This document shows positions 28,495-64,000 of a DNA stretch of 64,000 bases, piece after piece (positions within the stretch are counted from its first letter, which is position 1; every line of letters begins with the position of its first letter). A program made the translations under genes and the position numbers. Origin of the DNA: Hyaloperonospora brassicae (taxonomy: Eukaryota; Oomycota; Peronosporomycetes; Peronosporales; Peronosporaceae); NCBI GenBank assembly GCA_947650285.1, contig CANTFL010000641.1, positions 124,001 to 188,000 of the forward strand, written 5' to 3'. Below the pieces are notes generated by a model, which was given only the letters and a program-made list of their open reading frames with translations, had not been told where the DNA came from and did not search any database.

Positions 28495-28663
28495 GATGCG
28501 TAATCGCTAATCATTATGAGTGGGGACGACGACACGAGGCGTGTCACCGTCAACGGCTGTATAATATAACAGTACGTTACGCGTTGTGTATCGATCCGAT
28601 GAGGATCAGTGCAAAGCCGGTAAATCACTCATGGATTTACTGGATGTCGCACCAGATGATCCA

Positions 28664-29212: not shown

Positions 29213-29389
29213 GCTTTGCTTGATACCCTCAAAGGAACGCTGGCACTAAGCGTTCTATGACCATTTAAATATTTTCTTGAGCAAGCAAGAAAGATGAATA
29301 GTCATCTCGTCGTAGTTGCGCGAGTACTTGTGCAAGTACGCCGCTATACCAAGGAACTTCCTTAGTCCCTTAACATCGGATGGCACTGG

Positions 29390-30265: not shown

Positions 30266-30283
30266 CGATGAGCTGCTGAGAAC

Positions 30284-32605: not shown

Positions 32606-32655
32606 GTTAATGTTGGATGCTGTGGTCCTTGGAAGGACTACAAAGTGCTACCAGG

Positions 32656-33046: not shown

Positions 33047-33051
33047 GTACC

Positions 33052-41586: not shown

Positions 41587-41845
41587 TGATCGCTTGCCAT
41601 GATGCAAGCTGTAGAGAGGAAGTCGGTGGCACTGTGATACAAGGATTATGTCATTGGTCTTTTGTATCTCTTTGCTACTCTTTACTCAGCGCGATCCCCG
41701 TCCACTCGATCTGCAAATCCGGCATATTGTGGCACACAATGTATGCACTATACAATCAAAGTCAGTGGCCGCCATTCCTATGATCGTGCCGCGAGCCGCG
41801 CGCCCTTGCGCAATCGCATTTAGCACGACACTCTTGTTTTCAACA
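41587..41845 (-). repeat. Copia E 3' LTR
   Basis: About 259 bp, matching 46446-46706 almost base for base through CATTTAG. The plus strand begins TGATCGCTTGCC. The terminal ~15 bp are less similar, so the inner end is approximate. Confidence 0.88.
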
Positions 41846-41931
41846 CTCCTCCTCGGCAATGACTTTCCGTCCTAACCGAGGATGATCATCTCACACAGCG
41901 CCATGAGCTTGAATGCGTCCAGCGCCTTCGT

Positions 41932-43419: not shown

Positions 43420-44450
43420 GGCCTTTTACCAGCCTTCACACTTAGTGCTGCATAGCGCTTCACCGTAGTTCTTGGGGTCGCACTCATGCACATGACCCAC
43501 CACGCTGTCGTCGCTAGCTGGCTCCTCCTGACCCCCGGCCGCCTGTGCGCGTTTGGTTGCGCCGCGCGTCCGGTGAGACGCGCGTGTCCACGACTTCGAT
43601 TTCTTCTTGCCACTGTGTGTCGTCTGCGATAGGGCATCGTCCGCAGCCGGCGACTCTTCCCTTGTTGTTGCTGTTGCCGTTGGCTCCACGGCTCGATATT
43701 CATACTCGAGCGCGCGCTGCAGATGACCATTCTGCTCTGCGCTGAGCGTCTCGACGTTGCGCACATGCTGCGTGATCGTGACCTTGTTCTCCTTTTGGAA
43801 AAGACGCGAAAGCTTATAGTCTCGTCGTTCCGCCCAATGATCACGCCGACTTGCGCGCGCTGTGCGAGCGAGTTCTTGCCTGGGTCACGGCAAACCGAGC
43901 AGATAGAGACAAAGACGACGATGTAGCGCACTTCCGGCACTTTCTTCGTCAGTACCTCGATCGGCGATGCGCGCTTCGCATTCGCGCTCGTTGGGCTGCG
44001 GTTGAGGATGTACGCCGCGTACTCAACCGCATCGTTCCAAAACGTCAATGGCAGTCGACTGGCAAAGATCATGATGCGCGCCATGTTCAGTATCTTCCTT
44101 TGCATGCGCTCGGCTATGCCGTTTGATGCCTGCTTTCTTGCCTCGCTGATCTGCCGCGCGACGCCCGTTATCTTGCAGAAGAGGTCGACACTCGCGTATT
44201 CGCCGCCGCCATCAGTGCGTAGCACGTGGATCCGACAGTCGAACTGGCGCTCAAAGAACGCGAGGAAGTGCTCAAACTTTTTGGCCGCCTTGTCCTTTGT
44301 CGGCGCCAGGAAGGCGCGACAGTAGTTTGACTTGTGATCGGCAAAGTTGACGAGGAAACGATTGTGCAATCGATCCTTCGGGGTCATCAAACCCTTGAGG
44401 TCTGAACAGATCACCCCCCCCAACTCTGTCGATCGGCGAGTTTGATCCAT
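43371..44450 (-). pseudogene. Copia E integrase
   Basis: The catalytic core retains D-D-E: VICSDLKGLM, LRTDGGGEYAS and SNGIAERMQRK. Fold-typical NFADHKSNYCRAFL and AYILNRSPTSANAKRASP are also present. The C-terminal third switches to an Arg/Ser-rich frame after a frameshift, and the true frame (43764-43426) runs in parallel. Confidence 0.85.
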
Positions 44451-44595
44451 TGTCCTTCTTCTACTGCACGTTCCTTGTTTGCTTGCCCTGTGCGAAAGAG
44501 ATGCACGTCGGGCGCTTGCGATCCGTTAGCGCGATGCCGGACGCGGGGTGTCTCGCCATACGCTCGACGGTGTCGTACGCGAGATGCCCAAGCCT

Positions 44596-45534
44596 TTAAT
44601 GGAAGTGAAGCGGCGAGCCGCTTTGATTGTCCGACTCGGGTTCTTCCGGAGCTACTTGGCTCGTCAGGATCGCCATGAGCACGTTGCTAGGCGCTCGTGG
44701 CTCGCGAGCTGCCGCGACTATCTGGGCGTAGAGCACATTGTGGTCCATCGCCACATCGAACGTGACTTGGCCATTGCTGCGCCGTGCCAACACGCGCGAC
44801 TCGCCGTCGTAGACGAGCCTGAAACCCTTGAACTCGAGCTTACCGTAGAACATGATGTTGCGTGATAACTCGGGCGCCAGATACACGTCCGTCAGCGTCA
44901 CATCTTACTGCTGTCCTCTCGCGAGCACAGTAACAGCGACGCTTCCGACTTGCGTTAACTTGATGGTCTTCCTATCTGCCAAGTGGCACTCTTGATGGCA
45001 GTCCCTCGCGTCGCGCAGCAGGGATGCGTCGTTCACAAGGTGGCGGCTGGAACCGCTGTCGAGTATCCAGTCGTCATCTTCGTCATTGCTGTCGTCATCA
45101 ATCGCCATCGCCAGACTTTGACCGGTGGCGCGCGAGCCGTTGCGACCTCTTCCTCCGCCAACAGCTAGCGTGATGCTGCCGCCGTCTTTTGGGCATCTGC
45201 CCCTTTTCCTATCTTCATTCTGCTTGCTGCGACATGTCTTCTTCAGATGGCCAACCTTCCCACAACCATGGCAAGTGCGTGTCTCTTTGCGCGACACGGA
45301 CTCGTCCACGTGCGCGACGACCTCCTTACCGAAGGATCTTTCTGATCGAGCTTCCATCTGGATTGCTTGCGCGAAGTGCGCAAGCTCTTCCGCGTGCACG
45401 AGGTAGTCGATGCGGTGCGTCTGGTACTTCGCCATGAGTATTGTCGACAGCTCAGACGAGGCGTAGCGCACGATCTTGTCCAGAACCTGCTGCTCAGCAC
45501 CGCCCGCAGCGTCGCTGACAGCGGCCAGATACAA
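44596..45534 (-). pseudogene. Copia E nucleocapsid and protease
   Basis: 45534-44905 contains the zinc knuckle CHGCGKVGHLKKTC and an aspartic protease active site WILDSGSSRHLVND. A stop after ARGQQ separates it from 44901-44596, which continues in the same frame (VYLAPELSRNIMFYGKLEFK) toward integrase. Confidence 0.87.
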
Positions 45535-45631
45535 GTAGTGTGCTAGCCAGGATCTCTTGCTCTCTTTCTTGTCCGTGAAGATTTCATCGCTTGAGCGGCG
45601 GTTACGTCGTCTTGAACGTTTCCAGCATGCG

Positions 45632-46459
45632 CTACATCACGTAGTGCAATGTAGGCAGCACGTCCCTCCACGTGTAGACCTGCTTGCTGAAATACCGCTC
45701 GGCAGTGCCAGTGAGGTACTGACCGAGCACGTCAGTCTTCACGTTCTCGCTCCACAGGAAACCGCAAGCCTCCTGTGCCATGTCGACCTGGCGCCAAAAC
45801 GTCTTGCCCCAGTCGAAGAATCCGGACCCGAGTATAACGTACATATCAGTGCCATCGAACCTGCGGATCACCAGCTTGCGCTGCCTGGCATCCGGAGTGC
45901 GACACTGCATCGGCATCACTTGTTGCCGCTGCTGTACTGGCTGCTCTGGAGCTGCCGGCATCGCTCGAGGAACTGGTGGCGGCTGGTATGGTGGCAATGG
46001 GGCAGGCGGCTGAGGCAACGGATCAGCACGCTGCTGCAGTTGCTCTCCCGCTCGCATCCGTAGGACTTCGAGCCGCGCTGGTTCACGCCGCAGTTGCTGC
46101 TGAGGGTGGCGGTCGTGCGAGTCCTCAAGCTTAATTTCTCCGCCGTGGAGTCGCCCTGCGAAGTCCGCCCCGAGCTCTGATCGGAACAGATTGCTCTCGT
46201 GAGCGCCGCGCATGCGCTCGTCTTCGTGCATGCGTGCTTGGGACGATTCCATCTTCTGCATTCGCAAGTCCATGCCCATGAGCATTTCGAGAACCCTCGC
46301 CAGTGCGTCAGGATCCGCGCATCTTGCGTGAGCGGTGGGAGAGACGACCATAGCAGGCGTGGCCGCGGCCTTTTCGTGAACATTCGCCGGCGGCGCCTGT
46401 GCCGCGTTTGTGTCGTCGTTTGCTTCCCGTCTTGTGCATATTATCTGTTCGCTTGCCAT
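45632..46459 (-). pseudogene. Copia E gag N-terminal part
   Basis: It begins [15 protein letters not shown] at 46459, close to the inner edge of the 5' LTR. A coiled-coil segment ([20 protein letters not shown]) is followed by a Pro/Gln-rich linker and a capsid-like block ([20 protein letters not shown]). The downstream knuckle is in another frame. Confidence 0.8.
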
Positions 46460-46706
46460 GATGCAAGCTGTAGAGAGGAAGTCGGTGGCACTGTGATACA
46501 AGGATTCTGTCATTGGTCTTTTGTATCTCTTTGCTACTCTTTACTCAGCGCGATCCCCGTCCACTCGATCTGCAAATCAGGCATATTGTGGCACACAATG
46601 TATGCACTATACAATCAAAGTCAGTGGCCGCCATTCATATGGTCGTGCTGCGATACGCGCGCCCTTGCGCAATCGCATTTAGTACGGAAATCTCGAGTTT
46701 AAGACA
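46446..46706 (-). repeat. Copia E 5' LTR
   Basis: Partner of 41587-41845. Differences are few (for example TGTTCGC versus TGATCGC, and ATATGGTCGTGCTGCGATAC versus the CTATGATCGTGCC form), so the insertion is moderately young. Confidence 0.88.
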
Positions 46707-47484
46707 GCCATCATCCATATGAATACTATCAACTCGTTCCGTATCGTCTCGAGGCGGTAAATCGTAATTTTAAGGTGTACTGACTCAGATAATTCTAGCA
46801 CTTCTTCTTACCCGAATAGTGCGCTGATTTGTGCAACTCTGAATTAGGTCGCCTCGTCAGTGGCCGAGAAACGGGCCCACTCGATCACTACGGCTAAAGA
46901 CGAATAGATTCTTCAAAATGTGCGGACATTTATTGATCAGCGTGACTCTTACAGGGCCGTCTCAATGATGGAAATGAAAAAAAAACATTCACCCGCGGTA
47001 GCGGGAAGTTCCTGCTCGGTCTGGCGACGGCAATGTCGAATAATTGGCTTTTGTTAAACGGCTGAGGCGACTTCCCAATACCCTTTAGCAACTAGCAGCG
47101 TAGACGACTGGTTGCAAACGGCGCGACAGGAGCCGGATGCTCTATTTTGAATGATTAAGGGCTTTCCGATCGCGAAACAAGTTCTGTGGATTGTCAGCAA
47201 TCGCGTGCTAGTGGTGTGGATAGCATGGTGGAGTCGGATTTGTATTCACCACCCGCTGAAATCCTACCGTGGTCGTTTAATTGACAAACTTACTCAGAGG
47301 TGGCTTGGTGAATGGAAGAGCAACGTCTTCCGTCCACCGCCGCTCAAATTGCCGTCCCTCGACGACATCAGTGATGACTGGGTACGTCTGCGGAAAAATG
47401 CGTACGAGAGCGACGCTCTCTAATAACTGTGCGACGTGATTACCAAAGTCCGATTTGCTGTATCACATTATCTTTGCGTGTCTT
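46707..47484. other. Spacer between copia E and gypsy C
   Basis: About 780 bp. A 90-codon plus-strand frame at 47151-47423 (IHHPLKSYRGRLIDKLTQRW) looks protein-like but is not recognised. Nothing else is seen. Confidence 0.4.
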
Positions 47485-48228
47485 TCTGGAGAAGTCGGTC
47501 TCACAAAATTGCTTTAGTGAGGGTCGATCTTCCACTTGCTCAGAGTTGCCGACTCACGGAGACAGTACTCCGATCCGTGCCTTGTTGTATAGCCTTGTGC
47601 GCACCTTGTGTACCCGTCGGTTGGGCTGGCTTGAGATCTTCGTAATGACCTTGGGAGATGTCGATCTCGCTGAGGGTTTGGGGTTAAGAGTTCGCTTCCA
47701 GTGCGGAAATATTCACACCACGAACAGGGTTCTGCGATCTTGATCTTGAGTCGCGACGATCTCTATCTGGAAACGTCGCGATCTCGATCTTGAATCACAC
47801 CGATCTCGATTTATCCTCGGGGTCGGGGTCTTTGCTGTGCGGAATTCTTCACTCAGCAAATGACAGTCTTGCGTCGATCTTGCGTTGGGATCTGTCCGGT
47901 CTGGTCTCAGGATCGGCCGATCTTGCCGGAAGTGCGCAATGTGGGCGGATCGGTTGCTTGTTTTGCCAAAATGAAACGTGCCGATCTGTCATGTAGATCG
48001 CTTCAGTCTTGCTCGGTCTTGTCTTGAACTCCTTGTTCAGATCTTTTGACCACTTAAGCAGCCTCGCGATCTTGTAACCAAAATCCTTTTCCTTTACCCT
48101 TGTTTGCTGCTACTCTAGCAATTTGACTTGAGTTGAGTTACCTTAACCCCACATTGGCCAAACAATCCAGGATGAGTACACGAAACACGGCGCGGTGAAG
48201 TCTCTTGATCGACGGGAGGCCAAATTTC
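47485..48228 (-). repeat. Element C 3' LTR (left copy)
   Basis: At least 744 bp, matching 62330-63073. The inner boundary may extend further right, because the right copy is cut by D. Open frames here (47429-47743, 47790-47996) are within the LTR and are not treated as genes. Confidence 0.82.
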
Positions 48229-50341
48229 CTGCCCGGAAGAGAAGTCTGCGACGTGCTTTATATGTAAAACGGTAACTGTTTTGTCATCCAACCAAATTAA
48301 TAGTCATCCTATCTTTAAGCCTATTCCAAACTGTAGGTTACTCACCAAGTCGATATCACCTTTAAGCTTGACCGCCCTTTTGAACACGTGTCGAAATTTC
48401 GTGACCTGTGCTCCAAAGTAGCACCAATACTCCCGATATCGTACCTAGACACCAAAAAGGGACCTAATTCCAAATACGGTACCAAATACCCAATTTTGGT
48501 ACCGAAAAGTCCAGAATATCATCCAAATGCCGAATGTGTCTAAATCCATTTGCGACGTCAATTTAACCGGCTTCCACTAGCTCTTTCGATCTGAACTTTT
48601 AGGACAAAACTCTTGGACGTTCAACAAGCATGTTTATCACGATCAAATAGCTCCATCACTGATATATCCATAATCAGCAGGGAACATGACCGATCTGATG
48701 TCCAATTAGAGATTGTTGAGGATCGGTACGGTATAATTCAGCAGTTAATAGCTTTCTGTTTACCGTACGTGCTCCAATATCATCCTCTTGAGTTTATCGG
48801 ATCAACGAGACCATCCGCAGGTCTTAAAACAGATCCTTGGACTCCCACGAGCATCCACACTTCCAGATCGGGCTATAATTAACCTAAATCAGTACTTCCT
48901 TTGAGAGACTGGTAAAAGGTGTCACCGATCTGCTGGATGTTACACCTTCGTCACAGAGTCATATCGCATCACCTGGTCCCAGATCGCTCCATGGAAATCG
49001 TTCTATTTGTCGTCTTGTCCCAGATCGCTCTGTCTCAGGTCGATTCATATCCGTCAATCTGGAGACAGTTAGATCGGATCGTTGATTCCCGTTGAGATCG
49101 CTTTTCATCTCCTTATTGGATCGATAGGTCCAATGTCATCATTTTCCACCAGTAAGTGAAGCCTTAACCGGGTAGTCACCGATCCACGTCCCAAAATTGA
49201 GTTAGTGACTTTACCACAACCGCCCTCTGTACTGAAGTCCGTTTGAGCAGCATTCGGCTTCAGTCCAGTCACTCATCAACTTCAATCCAGGCACTCAAGT
49301 CCGTCTCATGGTCTCTATGACACGCCTCTCCACCTCGCCGATCGCTTCAGAATGTTCCCATGTGCTTTTGTCTCCGGATCGCGACCCGTTGCCCAGATCG
49401 CCAGATCACGAGGGGCTTACCCCAACAGCTCCGGATCAGCCTGGGTTTTCAAGTCCTCTTGGTCCGGCCAGATTGCCATCGATCGTCACGAGATCGACAG
49501 ATCGACGACCAACTGGACCTTTATCTCCATCCCGAGACATGTCGTCTAGATCGCCAGATCCCGGGAGGTATAATCTAATAGTCCCAGATCGACCCATATC
49601 TCCACTTTTTCTTACACACGACCGGATCGACAGCCTGAGTTGAGCCCATTACATTCTTCACCAGATCGATAGTTACTTGGGCTCCACTAATACTTCCAGT
49701 CAATCGACCTGGATCGCCAGATCATGAGTCTCGGCTTATATCGCTATTTGTTTGAACAAGATCGTTAGATCATTCTGCTTCACTTGGATTGCCGGTCTTA
49801 GTAGAATTCGAAAATGCTCATACATCAGATTTCATTATCATCGCTCGTCACATCTTTTATCGTTGTATCACCATGCCAAATCAATCTCGCTCTCCATTAA
49901 TTAGTTGGTAATTCAGTTCCATACTCATATACGAACAGCACATTCCTCTGGCATGTACTACCTCCAAGTACACCCTTCAAACCCATTCCACCAGCATGTG
50001 CTACCTCCTAGCACACCTGTCAACCGATATTGTCCGCCACATACAGCCTCCCGGTATGTGCTTTCACCGCCTTATAGCCATATGCAACCTCCTTGCATAC
50101 TTTAAGCACACCTAACAAACAGATCGGTGTTCGACCCTTGATGCAGCTTCTTTTAATTGACTCACCTTGAATCGATTTCGGCTTGCTCGACCACGGTCAT
50201 ATTCTTGCGACATATCCACGCAATTTACATCTGACTCGTCTAACCATGTCGGATCGCTGGAGCCTTTCCAACACTTCCCGACCGGACAGTGTACTCGTCA
50301 AACCCGTGGTTTTCGGCCAGATCGCACGTCTTCTGTTCATT
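48229..50341 (-). other. Element C interior, no recognisable domain
   Basis: GATC-rich sequence with many CAGATCGC/AGATCG words (for example 49,000-49,750). Only short frames occur. It would be the 3' part of the element, downstream of pol, before the 3' LTR. Confidence 0.5.
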
Positions 50342-50584
50342 TCACTTCGAACTTATCATCCTTTCGAACTCCTTCACAGCTATAGTCCGGCCACATACTT
50401 CACCAAAGCCTACTCGAAACTCGTATACCGTCAAAAATATTATTGGTCGATCCTGAAACATCTTGACCTGCTTCAACTTCGAAACATGAACTATCGAGAA
50501 CAATCTGTATAGTTTACCACCAATATCCAGTCGTACGATATGATTTACACATCTGACGGCCCCACGAAACAGTCCGTGCCACAT
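50342..50584 (-). pseudogene. Element C integrase C-terminal remnant
   Basis: An 80-codon frame with MWHGLFRGAVRC and KLYRLFSIVHVSKLKQVKMF, matching the region after the integrase core in oomycete gypsy polyproteins (typically LFPIVHVSKLK). No core catalytic residues are found nearby. Confidence 0.65.
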
Positions 50585-51393
50585 ATGGGTTAAACTTGGT
50601 GCATTTTTACCCTTGAACCGATAGAGTTAAAGCCGCAACTCCTCTTCACGACTTATCTGCAGTGGATTACAATCCGTATTATAGCGGTCGATCCCCACCG
50701 TATCAGACTCTTGGTTCATCACGGTGGACTGCCCATGCTCTTTACTGTATCCCATATCGGTCTCTTTTTTATGATAGTGACTGAATTTTATTCTGTCACG
50801 ATCAAAATCACTAAAAAATTCCCCGTTCGAGCATCTTTGCCCCTTCTCGATGTTCAAGCTGGCAAATCGATTTGGTTCCACAGAGTCACAGCTCATAGAC
50901 TTGGTGGCATCTATCACAGCAGGAGACAGCATATCATAATCACTCCAGGTACGTCATTGTAAGTCTCTGTTATAGCTGCGTCTCCAAGCTGTCGATTTTC
51001 TCGTCCTTGTAACACAACATCTCTAGTCGACATCCCGCCTGACTGACGTCTGGACTCTCCATGCACCGTATCAATATCGTCAGGGTCTCCGTCTTTGGTC
51101 GTGCCATCTTCACGTACCGATTGTTTCCATCAAATCGACGCTTGATCGATCTCCACCAAACCCTGCGCCGGCGACCTCGCACCCTCGTTTCCCTTCGACC
51201 ATCTCACGGTTGTAATCATCTCGAGTCCATTAACCAGTTGCGAATGTTCTTCTTGCGACTCACCATCCTTGAACCCAATCCTGTCTGCCTGACAGCTGGA
51301 CCGTTCTTGTAACAGATCAGCTACCTCAGACTCGGTGTCTTCAGTCGTAATCTCCCTTGTGGCGTCGATATCTTGCTTCGATCGGTCTTGTAT

Positions 51394-52371
51394 TCACTCG
51401 ACGCTTTTAATCTTCTCTTTACTATCCATCGCTGAATGTATCTCCATACACAGTCGATATCCACTTAAGGGGTTATCGCCGCATAGAAATCCGCGCCCCC
51501 AGTCTAGATCAGCTAGCAAATCGAGATATAATAACATACCACTACACTCGTCTTCAGCACCTTCGCGACCCTGACCCACGTGATCTTGATCCGTAATATA
51601 CCTTTGACCACTAACTCGATCTTGCTTGGTAGAAAACTCAAACGATCCATAATGTGAATGCAGGTCGTTTTCGCCATATTCATCTACACTTGTAGAGTAA
51701 TCGCCGCAGAGAAATCTACGCCCTCTGTCCAGATCAGCTTCGAGATCTTGATCCATACAACACGTTTGATGACTTTCTCGATCTTGATCGATAGAAAGCT
51801 CACACAATCCATCGGACAAATGCGAAATCACTTCGCGATCTTGAAAAGTCGAACACGGTGGATCACCTTCGCGATATTCTCGATCTTGACCGACAGAAAG
51901 CTCAAACGACCAATCGGGTAAATGCAGATTTACTCCACGATCTTGACAGATCCATTACTGCGGGTCACCTTCAAAATTTTGAACCGTAGAAAATCCTTGA
52001 CCTCTTTCTCGATCTTGATCGACAGAAAGCGTAAACGATCCATAGTGAGAAGGCGGATTCACTTCGCAGTCTCGATCTGTCGAATACCGTGTATTATCAT
52101 CGCGATCATATGTCCAATACTGTGGGTCAATTATTTATTCTCGATTCATTGCATAGGAGCGATCACTTTCTCGATCTTGATGTATATGACGTTGAACCGA
52201 TCGATCGTGTGTAGGATAAATAACTCTTCGATCTCGTTCCATCAAATACTGTGGATCACCTTCGCGATTTCGATCAGCTGAACTCTGAAACGATTCATCA
52301 TGTGAGAGTACATCGACGACGGCATTCTCTTCTCTTAACGCAGATTTGATACTTTCTCCTCCCGTTTTGGC
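51394..52371 (-). repeat. Imperfect GATC-rich internal repeats of element C
   Basis: Blocks with CTCGATCTTGA followed by GAAAGCTCA or variants recur near 51777, 51882, 52009 and 52170. On the minus strand they encode repeated acidic/Arg-rich peptides such as DRGRRFLCGD and DWGRGFLCGD. They occupy the position where RT would be expected. Confidence 0.6.
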
Positions 52372-52785
52372 TTAAGAAATTTGATGAGTGATTACTGCCA
52401 CTTCTTTCGCCGTTTCAACCGGATCATCTTTTGATCGCGCCATTAACTTTATCGGTCTGCCATAATTAGTAGGATTTGCCGGAGATTCAATCCATTCGTT
52501 ATCGGGACAATTCCATTGTTCATCTGTAGAATCTTTATAAGCTAAGGTTTGACACTCCTTATATCGGCCAGATCCATGCAACACGTATCCTTGAGATAGT
52601 GGTGTTATCTCGCCTTTCATCCACATACCGAGTGTGGTATGTGGTTGTAACACGATCTTCTTATCACCAATATTCGTCACCTGCAGATATAATAGCTTAT
52701 TAGGGCCGTATCTTACTGTTGGCACCCAATCATGCCCTCGTGCATTCCACAACCTTGAAAACACTTGACTAATACCGATCTTCAC
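52372..52785 (-). pseudogene. Element C protease-downstream pol segment
   Basis: A 137-codon frame (SQVFSRLWNARGHDWVPTVR, YGPNKLLYLQVTNIGD). It resembles the conserved segment between protease and RT in a common Phytophthora gypsy clade (recalled, not searched). It stops before any RT motif. Confidence 0.65.
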
Positions 52786-52870
52786 CTCCTTAGATTCTTC
52801 AACACGTATCTCGATAGGTTGATCAGTAGCTTTTATCTTTTCACCTTTAATTTATGCGGTGAACGTTGTC

Positions 52871-53404
52871 CTAAGAAGCGAACTGGATTCTCATCCGGTT
52901 GTTTTCGTGAAAGGTAGTATTGTTGATCGACCGATTCTTCGTGTCCACAATATTCGAGCAAATCTCTTCCGCCAGCGCCTTCCAATCAAATTGTATCGAT
53001 TTTTTCAGATGAAGATACCAATATCGGGCTGTAGCGGTGAGCAATTCACCAAACTCCAAACATTTTTCTTCATCGGGTAGTTGTTCCCAAGCAAAAGACG
53101 ATCTGACCTTGCCGATACGGCTCCGGGCCCTATCTTCGTCACGACTTTTTTCTGAAAACCCTTCCAGATGTGACATCACGGACGACCTTGGATGTATGTC
53201 GATCTCGGCTTGATCTTTACAGGCTATAATCCTGGCCTTGCCGATCATATCCTTTATAAACGATTCTCCCAATGGCCCCAAAGACATCCGACGAACGCTA
53301 TTGGACCAATCTGACTCAATCTCGGAGTCAGATGAGGCGTAATAAGGCGATCTTGAGGGGTGTTCTTGAGGAGATCCCGAGGGTATGACGATCCCGTCTA
53401 TAGG
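52871..53404 (-). pseudogene. Element C gag, part downstream of the B insertion
   Basis: MSLGPLGESFIKDMIGKARI leads into a retroviral-gag-like block, FAWEQLPDEEKCLEFGELL and ATARYWYLHLKKSIQFDW. The frame runs open from the insertion point at 53404 and joins in frame with 61392 on the far side of B, so B split a continuous gag reading frame. Confidence 0.8.
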
Positions 53405-53798
53405 TGTAACGGGGCAGCCCGTTACATGGAATTGTCACTTTAAGGAAAGTTACAGTAAAGAATATGAAGTTGAATATTTTTTAAACAATATCACCAATAG
53501 TGGTGATATTGAAGGGTCGACCAAAGCGTCTGTTCATTGGTTGATATCTTGATGTTATCAACACACCAATCGCCGCAAGACGCGCGCAATGAGTGGTGAC
53601 GAGACGTCACCATACACTCAGTTATATAATATCATAATTAAGTTAAGTCAAACAGAGAGACGGTAGTTAAAAGACTAAATTATATTAATATAACAGTTCT
53701 GCTTTTACCCTACATACGCTTCCTCGCTTGCCTTGTGTACGTCTGTAGGGGCACCGATACCCTTGCGTTGAGTTCACGCAAGGGTGTGCCCCGTTACA
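53405..53798 (+). repeat. Element B 5' LTR
   Basis: 394 bp. The first 22 nt form a hairpin, TGTAACGGG with CCCGTTACA. Two hairpins intact in the 3' LTR are broken here by single-arm changes (GTCACTT..., GGTTGATATC...). Confidence 0.95.
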
Positions 53799-53842
53799 CC
53801 TGGTAGCACTTTGTAGTCCTTCCAAGGACCACAACATCCAAC

Positions 53843-54997
53843 ATGAACATGTTGGATGATGAAGAGACCTTTTACGCCACGCGTAAAAGGTTGAATTATT
53901 TAAGTGACATCGAATGGAGTGCGGTAGAACGAATGAGTTCTACCGTAGGCGAGTTCGCCATTAGCGCCATGTTGGAGCCTCTAGACAGAGACCAACAACA
54001 TGCCGCTATCGCCAAGTTCATTCAAAATGAACTTGTCGCCGAAAGGGATAAAGTAGCCTTGCTTTACCAGCAAGGGACTTAACAGGCCGAGCAGTTGATA
54101 GAACTCGGTGCTCAACAGACAGAGCTGTTGAGACAGCAGCAATTCCATGCTGCCGTGGGCGGGACGGCGCATGCGCGTCGTCCCGAGGTCATGAAAGTTG
54201 ACATCTCCAAGTACAGTGGAGTCCCGAAAGACTCCCTGTTTCTGTGGTTTGTCGAACTCGACAGAGCCCTAAGGGCTCGTCGCGTCGAAGATGAGCAAAT
54301 GAAACTCACATTTGCTCAGACCCACTTGGCAGGACGTGCCAAAACTTGGTCCCTGGTTTTCGAGAGTAGCGACCCACATGTGGTTAGGTCGCTCGATGAC
54401 TTCAAGTCCCGGCTCAGACAAACGTTTGAGCCGCCACGGGTTGAGTTCAGGGCTCGTTCTGAGCTCCTGAAACTCAAGCAGGGTAAGCGTGATGTGCACG
54501 CTTATGCACAACATATACGACTCCTCGCAAGTAGTATAACTGCCAACCCAGTTCATGAACACACGTTGATTACGGTGTTCATGCAAGGGCTTGCAGAAGG
54601 GCCCGTCAGGAGCCACCTGTTCCGCCTTGAGCTGAATACGCTGGAAGAAGCGATATCAGCCGCAGAACAAGAAGACTTTAGCATGAGACAGGCTCATGCT
54701 AGTTCCAACTCTTACCGTCCACCGAGACGACAAGAGATCGGAGGTCCAGAACCAATGGACCTCTGCTATGTTGAGAGCTAGAGACCTCGCTCTACAAACA
54801 ACAAGCGATTGCAGAGGTGCAATCGCTGTCAGAAGTTAGGGCACTACGCATACGAGTGTAGTGCTCCACGCCCAGTACCAAACAGTACTGAGCGAAATGG
54901 ACGACCATTCGCCAGAAAGGGCAATGGGCGTGGGTCCAGCGCTGTTGCGAAGTCGCAACAGCGAGACGGACCATCAAAAAATGGTCGGGGTCAGTAG
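53843..54997 (+). pseudogene. Element B gag
   Basis: One frame from MNMLDDEETFYATRK with two internal stops: TAA at 54080-54082 after LLYQQGT, and TAG at 54779-54781 after DLCYVES. Both are shared with element A. The capsid-like domain includes ISKYSGVPKDSLFLWFVELD, GRAKTWSLVFES and FKSRLRQTFEPPRVEF. The nucleocapsid has the CCHC knuckle CNRCQKLGHYAYEC. It ends at 54997. Hairpins with 8-10-bp stems occur every few tens of bases, for example 53868-53890 and 54014-54034. Confidence 0.88.
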
Positions 54998-55029
54998 GGG
55001 CGGAGCGCCCTACTGATCCAGGAACCATA

Positions 55030-57062
55030 AGAGAATTTGCAAATCTCTTGACGAAAGTTGCTCCAGATACACAATCATTGTGTGTCTCTGCACCTGGTGA
55101 TGACGTTTCGCTCATCACCTTGAAGTTGGAAGCGACAAATGATTTGTCGCTTCGTGCCCTAGTAGACTGTGGGGCGTCGAACAACTTTGTTCGACGCCAG
55201 TCAATAGAGGGTTGTAGGCTCAAGTTCGTTGAGCGCGACATTTCCCTCACAAGAATGACGGTGCGCCTTGCAACAGGCGCATCGATTACCGTTAAGAAAC
55301 GTGTAGTCGGAATACACTACACGTTGGAGGGCGAACAGTACGATGATGACTTCATCGTACTGGATCTGGATGACAAATTTGATGTCATCCTGGGATTACC
55401 TTGGCTCAGAAAGTACGAGCCAAGAGAGAGCTGGCAGAATCGATACGTGAAGATGCCTGCCGCTTGTTCATCAGATGGCCATCTGATGAACATCTTGGAG
55501 CGTCCACAAGCGTGTGGATGTTCTGCAAGTGAGTGCGATGGCCTCACTTGCGGTACGGTCGTTAGCACGACTGCACAAGATCACAGTGTAGTTGATCACT
55601 ACACTGTGGACCAAGCTCCCGGCGGCTGTACAGAAGTACAGGTGGCGCCGAAGGTCCACCACTAAAAGAAGTCGAGTGGACCGGGACATGGATGCATGCC
55701 TAGCGGGCAGCATCTTAGAAGAAAGAAACCTGTTGCCTCCAAAGGGCAACATGGAAATCCTAGGTCGACTGGAGAGTCGACCGTAGAGGATCAGTACCTG
55801 ACTGTGGTTGCACAGCCACAGTCAGAAGACGTCGAGGGAATAAGTCCCCACGTACTTGAGGAAGAAATTCCTCGTTAGTCACTTGCTGAAGGATTAGGCC
55901 TTCAGCAACCTGTGGAAAGAAGTTCTTAGGAAGAAACCGAGACGTTGAACGTCTTGGTTAATGACGGATCAAGTGTAGGCGCTTATACGCTTAATCTGAT
56001 TGTGCCTTCGAAGTTAACTTCGGAGATAATTCAACTGCCGATGCTAGAACCGAAACGTTTCTTGCGTGATCTGCGTAGTGGCAAAGTCAAGCAGATCTGC
56101 ATACTCGTAACAGAGGATGAGTATGTGGCCGATATTCGGTCGTCGACAGTATTTGCTGAGAACGAACGGGTTCTCAGCAGCTCATCGATGGACGAAAGTG
56201 TCCTCGATGAGAAGACTCGTATTGAGCGATACACGTCTCAATTCTGGGAGTCGCTTCAGGCAAATCCTTTGTATAAGGATTTGATCGAATTCAAGGACGT
56301 ATTCCCTGAATCCGTACCTTGCGAGTTGCCTAAGGACAAAGGCACTCGACACGAGATCGAGCTCAAAGCGGGCTCGAAGTACTGTGTCATGAAGCAGTGG
56401 CCACTGCCTCGTGAACAAGTGATAGCAATCGACAAGTCCTTTGCTGATCGCTTAGCAGCGGGCCATGTGAGGGAATCAACATCCCCTCATAGCTCTCCGA
56501 CCTTCTGTGTGCGAAAGGCCACAGGAGGATGGCGAAGAGTGCACGCGTTCAACAAGTTGAATGCTGCAACGGTACTGGCTCAGACGCCGATACCAAGAAA
56601 CGGTGTGATCATAGATGGTATGTCAAAGAGTACCATCTTTTCGTCCATAGATCTGATGGATGAATTCTATCAGATCCTCATGCGTGAACGGGACATCCCG
56701 TTCACGGCAGTGAGTACCCCAGCGGTATGCTGTGGGAGTGGCTAGTGATTCCACAGGGGCTGAGCAATGCCCCGGCAACATTCAACAGATGTGTCACAAA
56801 TCTGTTGAGACCGGTGCGAGACTTCGCACCGAGTTACTTCGACGATGTGTTCGTCCATAGCCGGGCTATGGACGAAAAGATGGACGTTGAAGTCCACCAA
56901 ACTCACGTTCGTCAGGTTCTTCAACTTATGCGCAAGCATAAGTTGTATGCCAACCTCAAGAAGTGTATATTCGCGGCTAGCGAAATACCACTTCTTGGGT
57001 GCATCGTCGTCAAACAAGGCGTACGCCCTGATCCCGAAAAGATCAAGGCGATCACCGACTAG
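55030..57062 (+). pseudogene. Element B protease and reverse transcriptase
   Basis: Protease (ALVDCGASNNFV, FDVILGLPWLRKYE) runs in the frame opened after TAA at 55027, with stops at 55663, 55876 and ~55927. RT follows in the same frame from 55945 (KGTRHEIELKAGSKYC, SSIDLMDEFYQIL) until a 1-nt frameshift near 56720, then 56727-57062 (QGLSNAPATFNRC, YFDDVFVHS). TAG at 57060 replaces the Trp expected in AITDWPVP, as in A. Confidence 0.88.
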
Positions 57063-57242
57063 CCAGTGCCATCCGATGTCAAGTAACTAAGGAAGTTCCT
57101 TGGTATAGCGGCGTACTTGCACAAGTACTCGCGCAACTACGCCGATATGACTGTTCATCTTTCTTGCTTGCTCAAGAAAAATGTCAAGTGGTCATGGAAC
57201 GCTTAGTGCCAGCGTTCCTTTGAGGGTATCAAGTAAAGCTTC

Positions 57243-58727
57243 ATGCAGTCGCCGATCTTGGCGATTGCAGATCGGGACAGAACTTTTTACGTGGTCTGTG
57301 ACGCCAGCGATTTTTCTATCGGCTGTGCTTTGATGCAATACGACACAGACGGCGCAGAATGCGTAGTCTGCTATCAATCGCGTCAGCTGCAACCAGCTGA
57401 ACGCAATTACCCAGTGCATGACAAGGAACTCCTTGCCATGAAGTGTGCACTGGCTAAGTTCCGGGTCTATCTCTTGGGAGATAGACTGTTCATCGTCTAT
57501 ACAGACCATGCGTCACTTCGCACGGCCGTAAACAGTCCACACCTCTCGCAAAGAATGGCGAGGTGGCTGTCTTTCTTCGCGGAGTATAACTTCTCCGTGG
57601 AGTATAAACCAGGACGACTTAATGTCGTCGCTGATGCGCTTACGCGCCAGCCCGATTTCGAACCGGACGCACACATCAACAGTGAGGATAAGCCCACTGT
57701 TGCGACACTGTCAGTCAGTGTCCCGTCGTCAAGTTTACTTGACGACGTACGAAAGGCATACGCGGAAGATAAAGATCTTCTGCGATTGATGGATCATCTG
57801 GTGAATCCATCCAGTAAATCCATGAGTGATTTACCAGCTTTGTACCGATCCTCATCGGATCGGTACAGTACACGCAACGGATTGCTGTACTATACAGCTG
57901 TTGCCGACGACACGCCTCGTGTCGTCGTACCCGCTCATCATGATCTGCGTTTACGCATCATGTATGAGTGTCACGATGCCCCAACAAGTGGCCATCGTGG
58001 TAGAGAAAAGACTTACCTCACGGTAAGTCGTGACTTTTACTGGCCACGTCAGTATCAGTTTGTCCGCAAGTACATACGTGCTTGCGAGGTTTGTCAACGG
58101 GTGAAGCCTAGTCCTTCATCCCGTGCGCCATTGCAGCCTCTGCCTGTTCCGACAGAGTGCTGGCAGTCCGTTCTAATGAACTTCGTCTTCGGGTTTCCCG
58201 AAGACGCTCACAAGAATAATGGTATTCTTGTGTTTGTTGACCGATTCAGCAAGATGGTGCATCTTGCTGCTGTCCCTGAGTCGATCAAGGCTCAAGGTTG
58301 TGCTCGTGTCTTTCTCGACACGGTCTTTCGACTCCACGGTTTACCCCGTGAACTCGTATCCGACCGTGACCCTCGATTCACGGCGGCATTTCGGCAATCC
58401 GTGTTCCGCACATTGGGAACACGATTGAAGATGTCTACTTCTGACCATCCCGAAACATATGGTCAGACGGAACGTGCGAACCGTGTCCTCGAAGAGATCC
58501 TTCGAGGATATGTCCACTTGTTCCCGAGTTGGAGCGAATTACTACCCATGGTGGAATTCGCCATCAATAATTCAGTGCATGCTTCCACCCAGCACACACC
58601 GTTTTACGTGAATGGCCTACGCCATCCACGTGTGCCCGCCCTTCTAGAGTGTGACTCTTGGATAGGGGGGGGGGGACTCGCTCGAGCAAAAACCGTTTTG
58701 GCTCTTGCTCATATGTGTCGACGCTAA
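57243..58727 (+). pseudogene. Element B RNase H and integrase (494-codon open frame)
   Basis: The longest intact pol block. RNase H carries VVCDASDFSIG, HDKELLAMKCAL and YTDHASLRTA. Integrase has the HHCC finger (CHDAPTSGHRGREKTYL, RACEVCQRVK) and D-D-E residues (MNFVFGFPED, VSDRDPRFTAAF, RVLEEILRGY). It terminates at LALAHMCRR just after a poly-G stretch near 58670. It is linked upstream to RT in the same frame across a few stops, including TAG at 57204 shared with A. Confidence 0.9.
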
Positions 58728-59887
58728 CGTCGTCACGTATGATACCGATGTCGATCAGGTCGACATCGATGAAGAAGATCACCTCAATAATAGCGGCGAT
58801 GCTATTACTGACTCGGATGATGATGACGATGCTGGTATATTCAGCATCGTCAACGATTATTCCAGCGACGAAGAAGACAACCTCGCTGAAGAAGAGAAGA
58901 ACCCCTTAGCAGTGCGCACGAAGCGCACTGAAAGACAAAACAAAGAGTCAGCAGAGAACCTCCTGCTGACTCGAGAGGCGGTAGTCCGTTTCGTTCAGGA
59001 CTCCGTCGCAAATGCGGCGGACCGCCAGAAACGGAACGCAGACAAGAATGGAAGAGAAAATGTTCTTTCATTTAAGGTTAACGACCTAGTACTACTGTCT
59101 ACGGTAACCTACCTGGACACGCAGTCACTAGTGTCGGTAGTAGTAAACTACTGCCGAGGTACATTGGGCCATTTCGAGTGTTGCACCGCAAGGGCAATGC
59201 ATACACACTCGAATTACCACGTAAGATGCGCACGCATCCTACATTTTACGTGGGGAGGCTCAGGCCGTACTGTCAGTACGAGCCTTCTTCTTCCGCTGAA
59301 GATAGCCCCCACGTTCAAGAACATCCATCAAGTTTTTGCGTTCGCGCTCCAGACGATCCGTCTGGTCGCGCAGATATGATACCTCGGAACTCAACCGAGA
59401 TATCTCCCCGCGAGATGTCGCCAGCCCGCCGAATAGGGAGCGGACATCCCGCTCGACCTGAAGCTGCGCTGTGGCGTAATCGGCGCGGTCTATCGCCCGA
59501 TCAGCCTCGCGATCCTTGCGGTTCTTCCGCACGGTATCAGTCAAAGCGTAGCGCCGGTCGCGCTCGTGCTTCAATTCATCGCGCAATTCATCGATTGCGC
59601 GATCCATCTCGTAAGGGTCGAGATGGTGAACCGAATCATCTGGAGGAGGTCTTTCCTCCTCCGCCACATCCTTTGGTGGATTCTCACGGTGGTCAACGCT
59701 TTCTAGTGGAGCGTATCTTGAATCACCGTGACGATTCAGAATCAAGGACGAGCTACCTCGTCCAGTGGCGGGGGTATCCACCCTCTTGGAACAGCTGGGA
59801 GTCCCGCTCTCAGCGTTGATGGATGTTGAAGGTCTCGTCCGCCAGTATGACGAGACCCATCCGATGAGTTTTCGGGCCCATCGGTAA
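58705..59887 (+). pseudogene. Element B integrase tail with acidic insert and chromodomain
   Basis: 58705-59130 encodes an acidic stretch (DITDSDDDDDAG-like, SDEEDNLAEEEKN) and the integrase tail (VRFVQDSVANAADRQKRN, ENVLSFKVNDLVLLST). After a frameshift, 59178-59819 gives RTHPTFYVGRLRPY, a Pro/Ser/Arg-rich linker and the chromodomain (FLVERILNHRDD, YLVQWRGYPPSWNSWE). The last segment (VEGLVRQYDETHPMSFRAHR) lies in another frame ending near 59887. The linker is antisense to coiled-coil ORF 2. Confidence 0.85.
59260..59781 (-). CDS. Antisense accessory ORF 2 of element B (coiled coil)
   Basis: A 173-aa ORF that differs from the element A copy only at a few residues (RAIDRADY versus RARDHADY). 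A long heptad-type coiled coil (DELRDELKHERDRRYAL, SEVSYLRDQTDRLERERK) ends in QRKKKAR. It starts 39 nt upstream of the end of antisense ORF 1. The sense strand here encodes the integrase-chromodomain linker, so both strands are open. Confidence 0.5.
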   Translation of the reverse strand: MDTPATGRGSSSLILNRHGDSRYAPLESVDHRENPPKDVAEEERPPPDDSVHHLDPYEMDRAIDELRDELKHERDRRYALTDTVRKNRKDREADRAIDRADYATAQLQVERDVRSLFGGLATSRGEISRLSSEVSYLRDQTDRLERERKNLMDVLERGGYLQRKKKARTDSTA

Positions 59888-60864
59888 ACACGCGCCCTAG
59901 GCGCTTGTAGACGGATTGCAAGTTTGCAATTGCGTCACGCATCTCCTTCAAGAGATGTGCCCTTCCCCAGGGCAAACTTAGGGAATACACGTCCCTATGT
60001 GCACGCTGCGAGTTGTCAACACAACTCGCACAAGGATCACCCCATGTGAGGCAAGGAATGCCTGCCTCACTCGACAAACAGTGCAACCGGTACCTGGCAC
60101 CGATTGGCGTTCGCTTTTCGAACCTGAGGCGTACTGCCTCAAGCTTCTTGAGCCACCCTTCTCGTCCAAAATTCTTTACGTTTTGGACGAACGCGTTCCA
60201 CGCAGCCAAAAGCGAGGCTTTGTCACGCTTTTGGTTGCTGTTGTACCATCGATGTCTAAGGAAGACATCGAGATAAAAGTCTTCTTCAGCGCGAAAGTTG
60301 CTCGCGCTGGGAGTCAAGCCGTGAAGCTCAGTCGTATCGAATAAGGGTACTCGATGGTGTTGGCTTGTCTCGTGAGACAAGCCATTGATGAGCCGTTCAG
60401 GCAAACACCACGGCTTCAGCTCATCACGCTTCACGGTGGTACCCTTGTCGATACCACGGTTGCCAGTATGACGATGGGTTGCACCATCGAAAAGCCGCTA
60501 GTGCGAAGGAGCACGAGCTGATTGCGGTGATGAGCAAACATACTCATCACCAGATTCGTCATCACTGCCGAACAGACTGTGTTGCAATTCACGAGTCTGT
60601 CCCGTTCGGCAGTGGCCTTGGCGAACGATGAGGCACCGCCGGTGATCGAGACGCCTCTGGAACATTGCCCGAGTCAGGCACGTCTGACTCGCCATAATTG
60701 ATGACCTCATTGTCAAGGTCATCGTGTGCACGCGGTGCTGTACCGCGTGCACCTTCAGCACCTGTTGCTGCAGGCGAAGAACGAGCAGCAGACGCCGAAT
60801 CGTCTGCCGCAGAAGCTGGCACAGGCACAGACTCTGTGTGCCTTGAGTCACCCCGCATAGACAT
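59742..60864 (-). pseudogene. Antisense accessory ORF 1 of element B
   Basis: It starts MSMRGDSRHTESVPVPAS at 60864. A 1-nt insertion near 60600 and a stop near 60498 break the N-terminal third; both sites are intact in A. From 60434 the frame is open to 59742: KPWCLPERLINGLSHETSQH, EEDFYLDVFLRHRWYN, AWNAFVQNVKNFGREGWLKK, then a Cys cluster C-x8-C-x6-C-x2-C (CLSSEAGIPC...CASC) that could bind zinc, and KEMRDAIANLQSVYKRLGRV. Lesions are copy-specific, unlike the shared lesions of gag-pol. Confidence 0.6.
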
Positions 60865-60984
60865 GTTAACTATGCGAGGTCAACCGGAAAGTGAATGGAA
60901 AGGACCCAACAAGTGCTCCCTGTCCCAATGGTGACCAACGGGTGGCCGCCATTATTTTCGATAGTCACACGGTGACTATCAGTT

Positions 60985-60997
60985 AAGGGGGGGGTGA
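60985..60997 (+). other. Polypurine tract of element B
   Basis: AAGGGGGGGGTGA immediately precedes the 3' LTR; the homologous tract of element A is AAGGAGGGTGA on its own sense strand. It primes plus-strand DNA synthesis in LTR elements. The conserved 9-bp hairpin GATAGTCAC/GTGACTATC (60960-60980) lies just upstream. Confidence 0.85.
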
Positions 60998-61389
60998 TGT
61001 AACGGGGCAGCCCGTTACATGGAATTGTCACTTTAAGAGAAGTGACAATAAAGAATATGAAGTTGAATATTTTTTAAACAATATCACCAATAGTGGTGAT
61101 ATTGAAGGGTCGACCAAAGAGTCTGTTCATTGGTTGATATCTTGATGATATCAACCCACCAATCGCCGCGAGACGCGCGCAATGAGTGGTGACGAGACGT
61201 CACCATACACTCAGTTATATTAGCATAATTAAGTTAAGTCAAACAGAGAGACGGTAGTTAAAAGACTAAATTATATTAATATAACAGTTCTGCTTTTACC
61301 CTACCTACGCTTCCTCGCTTGCCTTGTGTACGTCTGTAGGGGCACCGATACCCTTGCGTTAAGTTTACGCAAGGGTGTGCCCCGTTACA
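60998..61389 (+). repeat. Element B 3' LTR
   Basis: 392 bp. Intact hairpins include GTCACTT/AAGTGAC, AATATCACCA/TGGTGATATT, GGTTGATATC/GATATCAACC and ACCCTTGCGT/ACGCAAGGGT. A modest number of differences from the 5' LTR indicates a fairly old insertion. Confidence 0.95.
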
Positions 61390-62030
61390 ATAGGAGCGGT
61401 GGTCTTGCCCACCAGAAGTATCGTGATCTCCACGAACTTTCTTACTTCGTTTTTCAACTGTTCCAAGCTGCATCCCATCAATTCATCTCTATCAAACGCA
61501 TTAGGGCAGAAGCCCGTGTCATTTAACATCTGCAAAATCAAATCAATTGCATTAACTTTGCTAGTCACATGCGGCGGGATAGAGATCGTCTTAACCAGAG
61601 AGCCGATCCACTTCGGCCGCAATATCTTAAAAACTGGGGCTGTCTTGAGCATTGTCTTAAAGTGGCTATAATAGCAATACCATTTCGCACGCTACCACAT
61701 TTGAGTCACCGACTCGATCTTGAACACCGCGACCTGGGCCATCTCACGATCATATTCTTCTTTGACTACGATCTTCGATCCGATTAGTTTTCCAATTCGG
61801 TGATCTTCGCCATTCGAACCCAGCACTTTCTTCTTCTTTCGTGCCGATCCGGCGCGTTTCTTGGCCGTTTTCCTCGTGTTAACGTCTGGTGACCTGCTGA
61901 CGAGAATATTCGATCCCGGCACATTCTTCTTCTTTCGTACCAATCCATCCAACGTCTTCCTCGTATTAATGTCAGGTGACCTGCTGACGAAGGTATAGAG
62001 TTCGGCTTTCGCCGTTTCGGTTTTCACCAT
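61390..62030 (-). pseudogene. Element C gag, N-terminal part upstream of the B insertion
   Basis: On the minus strand, 62030-61692 begins MVKTETAKAELYTFVSRSPD and has duplicated Lys/Arg-rich segments (SRSPDINTRKT and SRSPDVNTRKT). A stop precedes 61652, from which the same frame continues (FDRDELMGCSLEQLKNEV) to the insertion point. It then resumes in frame at 53404. Confidence 0.75.
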
Positions 62031-62328: not shown

Positions 62329-62329
62329 T

Positions 62330-63073
62330 TGTGGCAAAGTCGATCTCGCAAAATTGCTTTAGTGAGGGTCGATCTTCCACTTGCTCATACTTGCCGACTC
62401 ACGGAGACAGTACTCCGATCCGTGCCTTGTTGTATAGCCTTGTGCGCACCTTGTGTACCCGTCGGTTGGGCTGGCTTGAGATCTTCGTAATGACCTTGGG
62501 AGATGTCGATCTCGCTGAGGGTTTGGGGTTAAGAGTTCGCTTCCAGTGCGGAAATATTCACACCACGAACAGGGTTCTGCGATCTTGATCTTGAGTCGCG
62601 ACGATCTCTATCTGGAAACGTCGCGATCTCGATCTTGAATCACACCGATCTCGATTTATCCTCGGGGTCGGGGTCTTTGCTGTGCGGAATTCTTCACTCA
62701 GCAAATGACAGTCTTGCGTCGATCTTGCGTTGGGATCTGTCCGGTCTGGTCTCAGGATCGGCCGATCTTGCCGGAAGTGCGCAATGTGGGCGGATCGGTT
62801 GCTTGTTTTGCCAAAATGAAACGTGCCGATCTGTCATGTAGATCGCTTCAGTCTTGCTCGGTCTTGTCTTGAACTCCTTGTCCAGATCTTTTGACCACTT
62901 GAGCCGCCTCCCGATCTTGTAACCAAAATCCTTTTCCTTTACCCTTGTTTGCTGCTACTCTAGCAATTTGACTTGAGTTGAGTTACCTTAACCCCACCTT
63001 GACCAACCAATCCAAGATAAGGACACGAAACACGGCGCGGCGAAGTCTCTTTATCGACGGGAGGCCAAATATC
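62330..63073 (-). repeat. Element C 5' LTR (right copy), probably cut by element D
   Basis: Matches 47485-48228 without net indels. Twenty GATC sites were counted between 62337 and 63073. Beyond 63073 the copies diverge exactly where GTACC and the D LTR begin, so D may sit inside this LTR. Confidence 0.8.
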
Positions 63074-63078
63074 GTACC

Positions 63079-63516
63079 TGTAACGGGTAGCCCGTTACAT
63101 GAATTTGTCATTAAAACAATTTGACAATAAAAGATTTCACGTCGAATATTTTTTTAACAATATCATAGACATGGTGATATTGTTTAGATGACCGAAGGGT
63201 CTACTCATTGGTTGATATCATGATGATGTCAACCCAACAATCGCTGCTAGACGCGCGCAATGGGTGGTGAGTAGACGTCATCATACATTTAGTTATATTA
63301 ATTTAATGAAGTCAGGACAACAGAGATTCAAGAAGTTATAAGACTTAATTATATTAATACAGTTTTACTTTTACCAAGAGACTAGTCTGACTCCTTAGCG
63401 TCCTTTTCTTCCTCTGTGTTCTTTAAACAACTATCAAAGAACTGTCGACCATTGTCGTCAGTGGAAGTATACTCCGTACTGGTCAACCAGTACGTAGTCA
63501 ACAGTGCCCCGTTACT
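63079..63516 (+). repeat. Element D 5' LTR
   Basis: 438 bp, a diverged relative of the A/B LTRs. It starts TGTAACGGG-TAG-CCCGTTACA and ends GTTACT. The segment 63370-63500 differs completely from A and B. The 5 bp before it are GTACC, the same as the target-site duplication of A. CCTGGTAGCGCTTTG follows and matches the primer-binding site of B. Confidence 0.88.
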
Positions 63517-63566
63517 CCTGGTAGCGCTTTGTAGTCCGTCCAAGGACCACAACCCCATCGCCCAAC

Positions 63567-64000
63567 ATGAACATGTCGGACGATGTAGACTGCGACAGCT
63601 TTCACGGAACCCGTGAAAGCTACTCCCATTTGAGCGACATCGAATGGATTGCGATCGAACGAATGAGTTCGACCGTTGGCGAGGAAGCCATATGGGCCAT
63701 GCTATCCTCAAAGGATAGGGACCAGCAACATGTCGTCATTAGCAAGTTTTTGCAACGAAAACTTAATGAGTCGCGAGCGCAGGTGACCTTGTTACAACAA
63801 CAAGATCACCAGCGGACCGAACCTCTGAGCCAACAACAGTCTCAGTCCGCAGAGCCGACGCGTGAGCGTCGACGGGAGTCTCTAAAACTAGAGGTCTCCA
63901 AGTATCAGGGAGTCGAGGAAGACTCCCTGTTGAGGTGTTTCGTCGATCTGGACGATGCCATTGATGCTCTTTGCATCGACGATGAGCGAATGCAAGTCTC
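63567..64000 (+). CDS. Element D gag, N-terminal part (runs off the window)
   Basis: An open frame from MNMSDDVDCDSFHGTRES to the window end (144 full codons). It is clearly homologous to B gag (LSDIEWIAIERMSSTVGEEA, DRDQQHVVISKFLQRKL, VSKYQGVEEDSLLRCFVDLD) but has no stop where A and B carry TAA. Hairpins occupy homologous positions to those of B with changed but complementary arms (63598-63620, 63744-63764). It may be a more intact member of the family. Confidence 0.88.
   Translation, partial: MNMSDDVDCDSFHGTRESYSHLSDIEWIAIERMSSTVGEEAIWAMLSSKDRDQQHVVISKFLQRKLNESRAQVTLLQQQDHQRTEPLSQQQSQSAEPTRERRRESLKLEVSKYQGVEEDSLLRCFVDLDDAIDALCIDDERMQV

Follow-up and report, generated by a model that had tools for sequence, protein, structure and literature searches.

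Short perfect hairpins fill a chromodomain Ty3/gypsy retrotransposon family in Hyaloperonospora brassicae

Element B, a decayed Ty3/gypsy retrotransposon with a chromodomain (7985 bp; positions 53405-61389, plus strand), is packed with short perfect inverted repeats. It lies in a 64,000-nt stretch of DNA from the oomycete Hyaloperonospora brassicae, hereafter the window, on whose forward strand all element coordinates are given. Perfect stems with loops of 0-15 nt were counted and compared with the mean of 20 dinucleotide shuffles. As the initial annotation had claimed, the element is far from random: B holds 79 stems of at least 8 bp against 1.2 in the shuffles, and 38 of at least 10 bp against 0.1. 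We tentatively propose, with limited confidence, that each gypsy family imposes its own hairpin size (about 24 nt in the family of B; 13-16 nt, mainly with 5-bp stems, in a second family) in the form of perfect Watson-Crick hairpins that show no evident sequence motif and whose positions turn over at constant size. Such a sequence-independent structural code, extending over long terminal repeats (LTRs) and genes, would be read by the family's own machinery.

The same pattern had been described in two other elements of the window, and the counts bear this out. Element A (25070-33046, minus strand), a second copy of B's family that shares 93.5% identity with B and hence is not independent of it, contains 72 stems of at least 8 bp (1.9 in shuffles) and 34 of at least 10 bp (0.1). 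The excess in A and B is approximately 40- to 65-fold at the lower threshold and several hundredfold at the higher one. Element D, the start of a related subfamily (LTR about 78% identity, gag region about 75% identity to the B family), is cut at the window end; its visible part (63076-64000, plus strand) has 5 stems of at least 8 bp against 0.15. Six other stretches of the window are near chance, with 1 to 9 such stems against 0.25 to 4.5 expected, and the density in A and B lies far above both the shuffles and the other retroelements of the window. Stems of 4-7 bp showed no clear excess in the stretches 16000-25000, 33050-41000, 41586-46705 and 46706-53400; in the host stretch 1-16000, with its 9-bp tandem array, seven-bp stems numbered 15 against 7.1. 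Folding of 200-nt windows gave the same picture. The z-scores of the RNA minimum free energy (MFE) on the plus and minus strands, respectively, were -5.3 and -4.7 for A (n=20), -5.7 and -5.3 for B (n=19), -2.2 and -2.6 for D (n=2) and -0.3 and -0.15 for the other windows (n=119).

Individual hairpins singled out in the initial annotation were recovered. Three consecutive 10-bp hairpins occupy 58184-58269 in the B integrase (58184-58206, loop 3 nt; 58209-58232, loop 4 nt; 58247-58269, loop 3 nt), and the stem placed near 55583-55609 is an 11-bp stem with a 5-nt loop at 55582-55608. Two others are present and had been understated in length: a palindrome near 55470-55490, given as 20 bp, is a perfect palindrome of 28 bp (55465-55492), and the TTCGTCCATAGC stem is part of a 13-bp stem with a 1-nt loop in the B reverse transcriptase (56850-56876).

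All DNA compared comes from a single genome (G000; 100.6 Mb in 898 contigs), and families of other species are visible as proteins only. Many copies of the family are present; of 7214 candidate pol matches 87 were scored, and a frame of 1339 codons is open in many of them. L058, a complete intact copy with frames of 384 and 1287 amino acids, carries 119 stems of at least 8 bp in 8 kb, from LTR to LTR, and when mismatches were allowed the stem length peaked at 11 and dropped after 12. Stems of the B family are found in the LTR, gag, pol and 3′ region, and in replicating copies a short perfect hairpin recurs approximately every 70 nt, in LTRs and genes as well as in the 3′ region. Within the LTR of L058 (108-503), the middle stretch of about 150 bp is stem-free with stems on both sides; this middle part may hold the promoter. 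Among 4227 Rfam models none matched L058 at gathering score, and among the papers listed by searches of an open-access library none was found to describe such hairpin-saturated elements, judged by titles and abstract openings.

Named protein relatives are from oomycetes (Peronospora effusa, 81%; Peronospora matthiolae, up to 76%; Phytophthora fragariae, 66%), and a search for relatives in viral contigs confirmed none. That the hairpins arise from chance, base composition or an assembly artefact is scarcely credible and is contradicted by dinucleotide and codon-preserving shuffles, and several differently built scripts gave no sign of an error in the counting of stems. The array recurs in many copies on different contigs, the family has protein relatives in other oomycetes, and the host and copia open reading frames (ORFs) of the window are at chance level.

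Codon-preserving shuffles were applied to a 3165-nt ORF piece of an intact relative, which contains 46 stems of at least 8 bp against a mean of 1.07 (maximum 6 in 200 shuffles). Stems were scarcest in the codon phase that leaves the least room for synonymous change (12 of 58, against 25 and 21 in the other phases; 16 of 75, against 32 and 27, in a second count). Taken together, this excess and this scarcity show that the hairpins lie in codon choice: the coding sequence takes them up through synonymous codons. Relative to codon-preserving shuffles, the mean MFE z of L058 pol was -4.3 for the sense and -4.8 for the antisense strand, compared with -0.1 to -0.2 for the sense strand of host ORFs.

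The trait had been described as specific to the family of A, B and D. Copia elements, gypsy C and host stretches indeed lack it; two further gypsy families of the same genome possess it at other sizes. These were found using relatives from other oomycetes as queries and share 53-58% identity with B in Pol, so that three gypsy families were examined (family 2, L059-L061 and L067; family 3, L063 and L064; L062, L065 and L066 turned out to be members of the B family). The outer span of B-family hairpins is 24.3 ± 3.0 nt, and their loops shrink as the stems lengthen. In family 2 the span is 13-16 nt, alike in L059, L060 and L067, with mainly 5-bp stems. Compared with codon shuffles (loops 3-15 nt), the L060 ORF has 189 four-bp stems against 139, 105 five-bp stems against 36.6, 18 six-bp stems against 9.3 and 2 seven-bp stems against 2.5; stems of 8-10 bp are absent, and a single stem has 11 bp. 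Extension of family 2 stems past 5 bp was not above chance pairing of the flanks (13 of 81). Family 3 has a moderate excess of stems up to 9-10 bp. Counting complementary 4-mers by span, which requires no stem definition, gave raised numbers at spans of approximately 9 to 27 nt in B and 10 to 15 nt in family 2, and weakly raised ones at about 11 to 23 nt in family 3; host sequence was flat, and copia and gypsy C were nearly so.

The five-bp stems of family 2 favour loops of 3, 4, 5 and 6 nt in descending order (28, 18, 14 and 8). Because these hairpins do not form with loops much below 3 nt, a strand seems really to fold. The hairpins were only slightly more stable than length-matched chance ones (-3.8 vs -3.4 and -12.7 vs -11.2 kcal/mol); because each family has a size limit, stability alone is not what counts. 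Placement of the hairpins is random, as is the spread of the gaps between them, which rules out a regular tiling; gaps below 10 nt are slightly commoner in family 2 (0.32 vs 0.24 ± 0.04).

To explain these arrays we favour, with confidence somewhat below even, the view that selection on how the replicating genome folds locally maintains them, with hairpin size tuned to the family's own machinery. Selection would act on the genome while it is single-stranded during replication, as genomic RNA and/or cDNA. Size would be set by something that each family brings, most likely its own Gag/nucleocapsid or its replication machinery, and the hairpins could amount to a code for folding and packaging that is based on shape and dispersed over all genes; the step from selected to packaging is one that we only infer.

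Stem counts across copies are consistent with such maintenance. In an aligned pol stretch (L055, with about 700 nt aligned, was left out), all 29 other loci of the B family have 42-45 stems of at least 8 bp, B and A have 27 each, and L053 and four D-type copies have 17-24. In dead copies the stems decay. Changes found in a single copy (n=264) produced 7 stem gains (15.2 expected) and 52 losses (65.6 expected); those common to 2-5 copies (n=56) produced 1 gain (2.9) and 12 losses (15.6); and those common to more than 5 copies, polarised by D (n=61), produced 10 gains (3.8) and 7 losses (19.0). The contrasts between widely shared and single-copy changes are significant for gains and losses (Fisher p 0.0002 and 0.007), on small numbers.

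Fourfold-degenerate sites evolved more slowly in stems in 7 of 7 comparisons with L058 (p 0.018 to 3e-5, uncorrected and with one shared reference). In family 2, fourfold divergence between L060 and L067 was 13/80 in stems and 85/232 elsewhere (p 7e-4). This conservation disappears when family 2 is compared with B or with family 3 (37/56 vs 110/172 and 20/29 vs 62/100, respectively). Hairpin positions therefore turn over while the property persists.

The B and D clades were then compared pair by pair, using stems defined in B. Pairs with gaps or without a clear majority were dropped (37 of 300 in gag, 34 of 486 in pol); for pol, L053 was kept separate and A and L010 were excluded from the B set. 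L051, 99.8% identical to L048, was retained in the gag comparison and excluded from the D gain/loss, arm-bias and free-pair tests. In the gag region 19 of 263 clear pairs had changed on both sides and remained Watson-Crick, compared with 3.0 in slid controls; in pol 6 of 452 pairs showed such double changes, four of the six in one hairpin. Site divergence in the gag comparison was 0.088 in hairpins present in both clades and 0.261 in neither, and reached 0.344 and 0.276 where only B or only D had the hairpin, respectively. The low divergence of common hairpins and the high divergence of one-clade hairpins indicate that hairpins are both kept and newly made.

Several observations weigh against selection on folding. 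RNA binding usually tolerates G-U pairs. Among single changes off Watson-Crick pairing between B and D, G-U and A-C each occurred 18 times in B-defined stems (10:4 in pol, 8:14 in gag), and 20 and 22 times, respectively, in D-defined stems. The equality was first met in decayed A and B, where decay alone would yield it; it held when repeated in intact copies (G-U to A-C about 12 to 9), between the clades and in family 2. There, five-pair hairpins with loops of 3-6 nt are enriched when perfect (103 vs 22.8 expected), and are not enriched with one internal G-U (35 vs 34.8); those with A-C number 19 against 25.7. Antisense folding of L058 pol is as strong as sense folding, and no loop sequence motif is evident in B or family 2 hairpins. 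The null of the gain/loss test was not confined to synonymous changes, so that constraint on the proteins may contribute to the shortage of losses; the corresponding test in D copies pointed in the same direction and was underpowered (62 shared changes). Finally, L060 and L059 of family 2 showed no significant slowing at fourfold sites (11/152 vs 51/540).

These observations divide an early suggestion of selection on RNA structure. Selection on pairing is supported by slow fourfold stem sites, compensatory pairs and the gain/loss contrast; plain selection on sense-RNA structure is weakened, since G-U is no better tolerated than A-C, and is left unsupported by the equal folding of the antisense strand. 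Neither this equality of G-U and A-C nor the family-specific hairpin size fits an ordinary explanation. The make-up of the hairpins is nonetheless strand-specific in B and family 2, which speaks for the favoured selection on folding. Loops of B are A-rich (0.33 A, 0.23 T) and those of family 2 are not (0.23 A, 0.31 T), and of 95 family 2 hairpins 47% carry G at the outermost 5′ position and 78% a pyrimidine as the 5′ base that closes the loop.

Perfect pairing, the equality of G-U and A-C, the size limit of each family and the presence of hairpins in non-coding parts would also be explained by a mutational process. During reverse transcription the growing strand would fold back, copy its own arm and return (quasipalindrome correction), with the reach of each reverse transcriptase setting the size and purifying selection on proteins acting as a filter. 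Homogenisation of arms by template switching has a precedent in yeast coding DNA (PMC8604942), and one B/D hairpin, with four base differences in one arm and zero in the other, speaks for such a process. We regard this explanation as possible but doubtful. Among 31 aligned recent copies no multi-nucleotide event creating a hairpin was seen, although 3 of 7 rare stem positions did not align to the reference and were not judged. Differences between B and D fall about evenly on both arms (27/23, 16/20, 19/18 and 1/3), in contrast to the one-armed clusters expected of template switching. Stem gains in changes common to 2-5 copies stayed below expectation. At coding pairs with both sites free, joint change occurred in 2 of 57, compared with about 12 expected from free non-stem sites, by our own arithmetic and assuming fully concerted, neutrally evolving arms. 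The coding count is the one relied upon; a count of 6 of 186 free pairs adds LTR pairs defined from two copies, some of them doubled. A frequent hairpin template-switch process, as had initially been suggested, thus lacks support in recent copies, and selection on folding is favoured because no fresh creation events were seen and joint changes at free pairs were too few.

Strand symmetry also bears on an explanation by evasion of silencing, likewise among the initial suggestions. Here local folding of both strands would keep sense transcripts from annealing to antisense ones and leave few open sites to small RNAs, each stem being too short a substrate for Dicer. Both folding and wobble counts are strand-symmetric. 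In addition, intact copies encode an antisense gene between pol and the 3′ LTR, partly overlapping the chromodomain frame (534 amino acids; L058 7572-5971, minus strand). The protein has 11 homologues (35-84% identity) in metagenome records and Peronospora matthiolae, and antisense transcripts of the family are likely because the gene is conserved. Its structure model is of low confidence (mean predicted local distance difference test score 55, predicted template modelling score 0.32), with a long C-terminal helix at 417-518 and a helical middle as the credible parts. Small RNAs of 25 nt in Phytophthora derive mainly from transposable elements, and those of 21 nt largely from inverted repeats (PMC3804510), which fits this explanation. 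Nevertheless, we consider it unlikely, as it leaves the sharp family-specific size and the 5-bp stems unexplained, the gaps between hairpins are random rather than evened out, and the hairpins cover the whole length of the element and not just the part with the antisense gene.

B, A and D are members of a high-copy Ty3/gypsy lineage with a chromodomain. The LTRs of B (5′, 53405-53798; 3′, 60998-61389; both plus strand, 96.4% identical) start with TG and end with CA, and are flanked by a short target-site duplication, ATAGG, at 53400-53404 and 61390-61394. The domain order of gag, protease, reverse transcriptase, RNase H and integrase was read from Pfam matches on the plus strand: a gag piece (54095-54781; Retrotrans_gag E 2.5e-15), a protease piece (55048-55665; RVP_2 E 4.5e-9), a first piece of reverse transcriptase (55945-56745; RVT_1 E 0.0042, under the Pfam cut-off, placed by alignment to the intact L058 pol ORF) and a piece of RNase H and integrase (57243-58727; RT_RNaseH E 3.5e-32, Integrase_H2C2 6.9e-21, and rve 4.2e-7, likewise under the cut-off). 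A chromodomain piece follows the integrase (59178-59819; Chromo E 6.2e-11, and 1.1e-13 in L058). The antisense gene is represented in B by a fragment at 59742-60434 (minus strand).

Two LTR-like repeats with 98% identity flank B (47484-48225 and 62329-63070), and B therefore probably sits inside another element, C. Element D begins a few bases past the right repeat. A long tandem array with a 9-bp unit runs from position 5575 of the window onward. Elsewhere in the genome, five B-type LTRs are arranged head to tail with a period of approximately 415 bp (contig C93:228276-230324). The copy L042/L053 (contig C671) has a D-like gag region (94.5% identity to L041), whereas its pol resembles B (87%) more than it does the D copies (82-85%); it is likely a recombinant.

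If our proposal is true, a second, non-protein code runs across the genome of a mobile element, with one hairpin size per family, upheld at synonymous sites. With hairpin-free elements of the same nucleus serving as controls, families B, D, 2 and 3 would allow a test of what reads retroelement folding (packaging, reverse transcription, silencing). If instead the mutational explanation is true, the genome bears the imprint of a polymerase's own mechanics. Under either reading, a method that assumes neutrality at the synonymous sites of such copies would give biased results.

Several known systems share features with these elements. Retand-type plant gypsy elements resemble them in an antisense ORF between pol and the 3′ LTR that encodes a coiled-coil-like protein (PMC11963269); the main text of that paper does not use the words hairpin, inverted or secondary structure. 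They differ in that a chromodomain is present here and no TRP28 domain is found among the 6 Pfam matches of the antisense protein up to E 1. Template-switch or quasipalindrome mutation likewise makes the arms of inverted repeats perfectly complementary (PMC8604942). It is known as rare single events, whereas the hairpins described here number more than 100 per element, are stable among recent copies and are conserved at free sites. Single-stranded RNA viruses carry dispersed packaging signals, which are similar in being many small hairpins across a genome; here no loop motif is evident and Gag binding is putative. Genome-scale ordered RNA structure (GORS) of RNA viruses is similar in that folding exceeds codon-preserving shuffles along the genome, as it does in L058 pol, and in that positions are not fixed between relatives. 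Tolerance of G-U above A-C, a further mark of GORS, is absent here, and the hairpins of these elements differ from GORS in being perfect and short, limited in size per family, equally folded in antisense, and hosted by an LTR retrotransposon.

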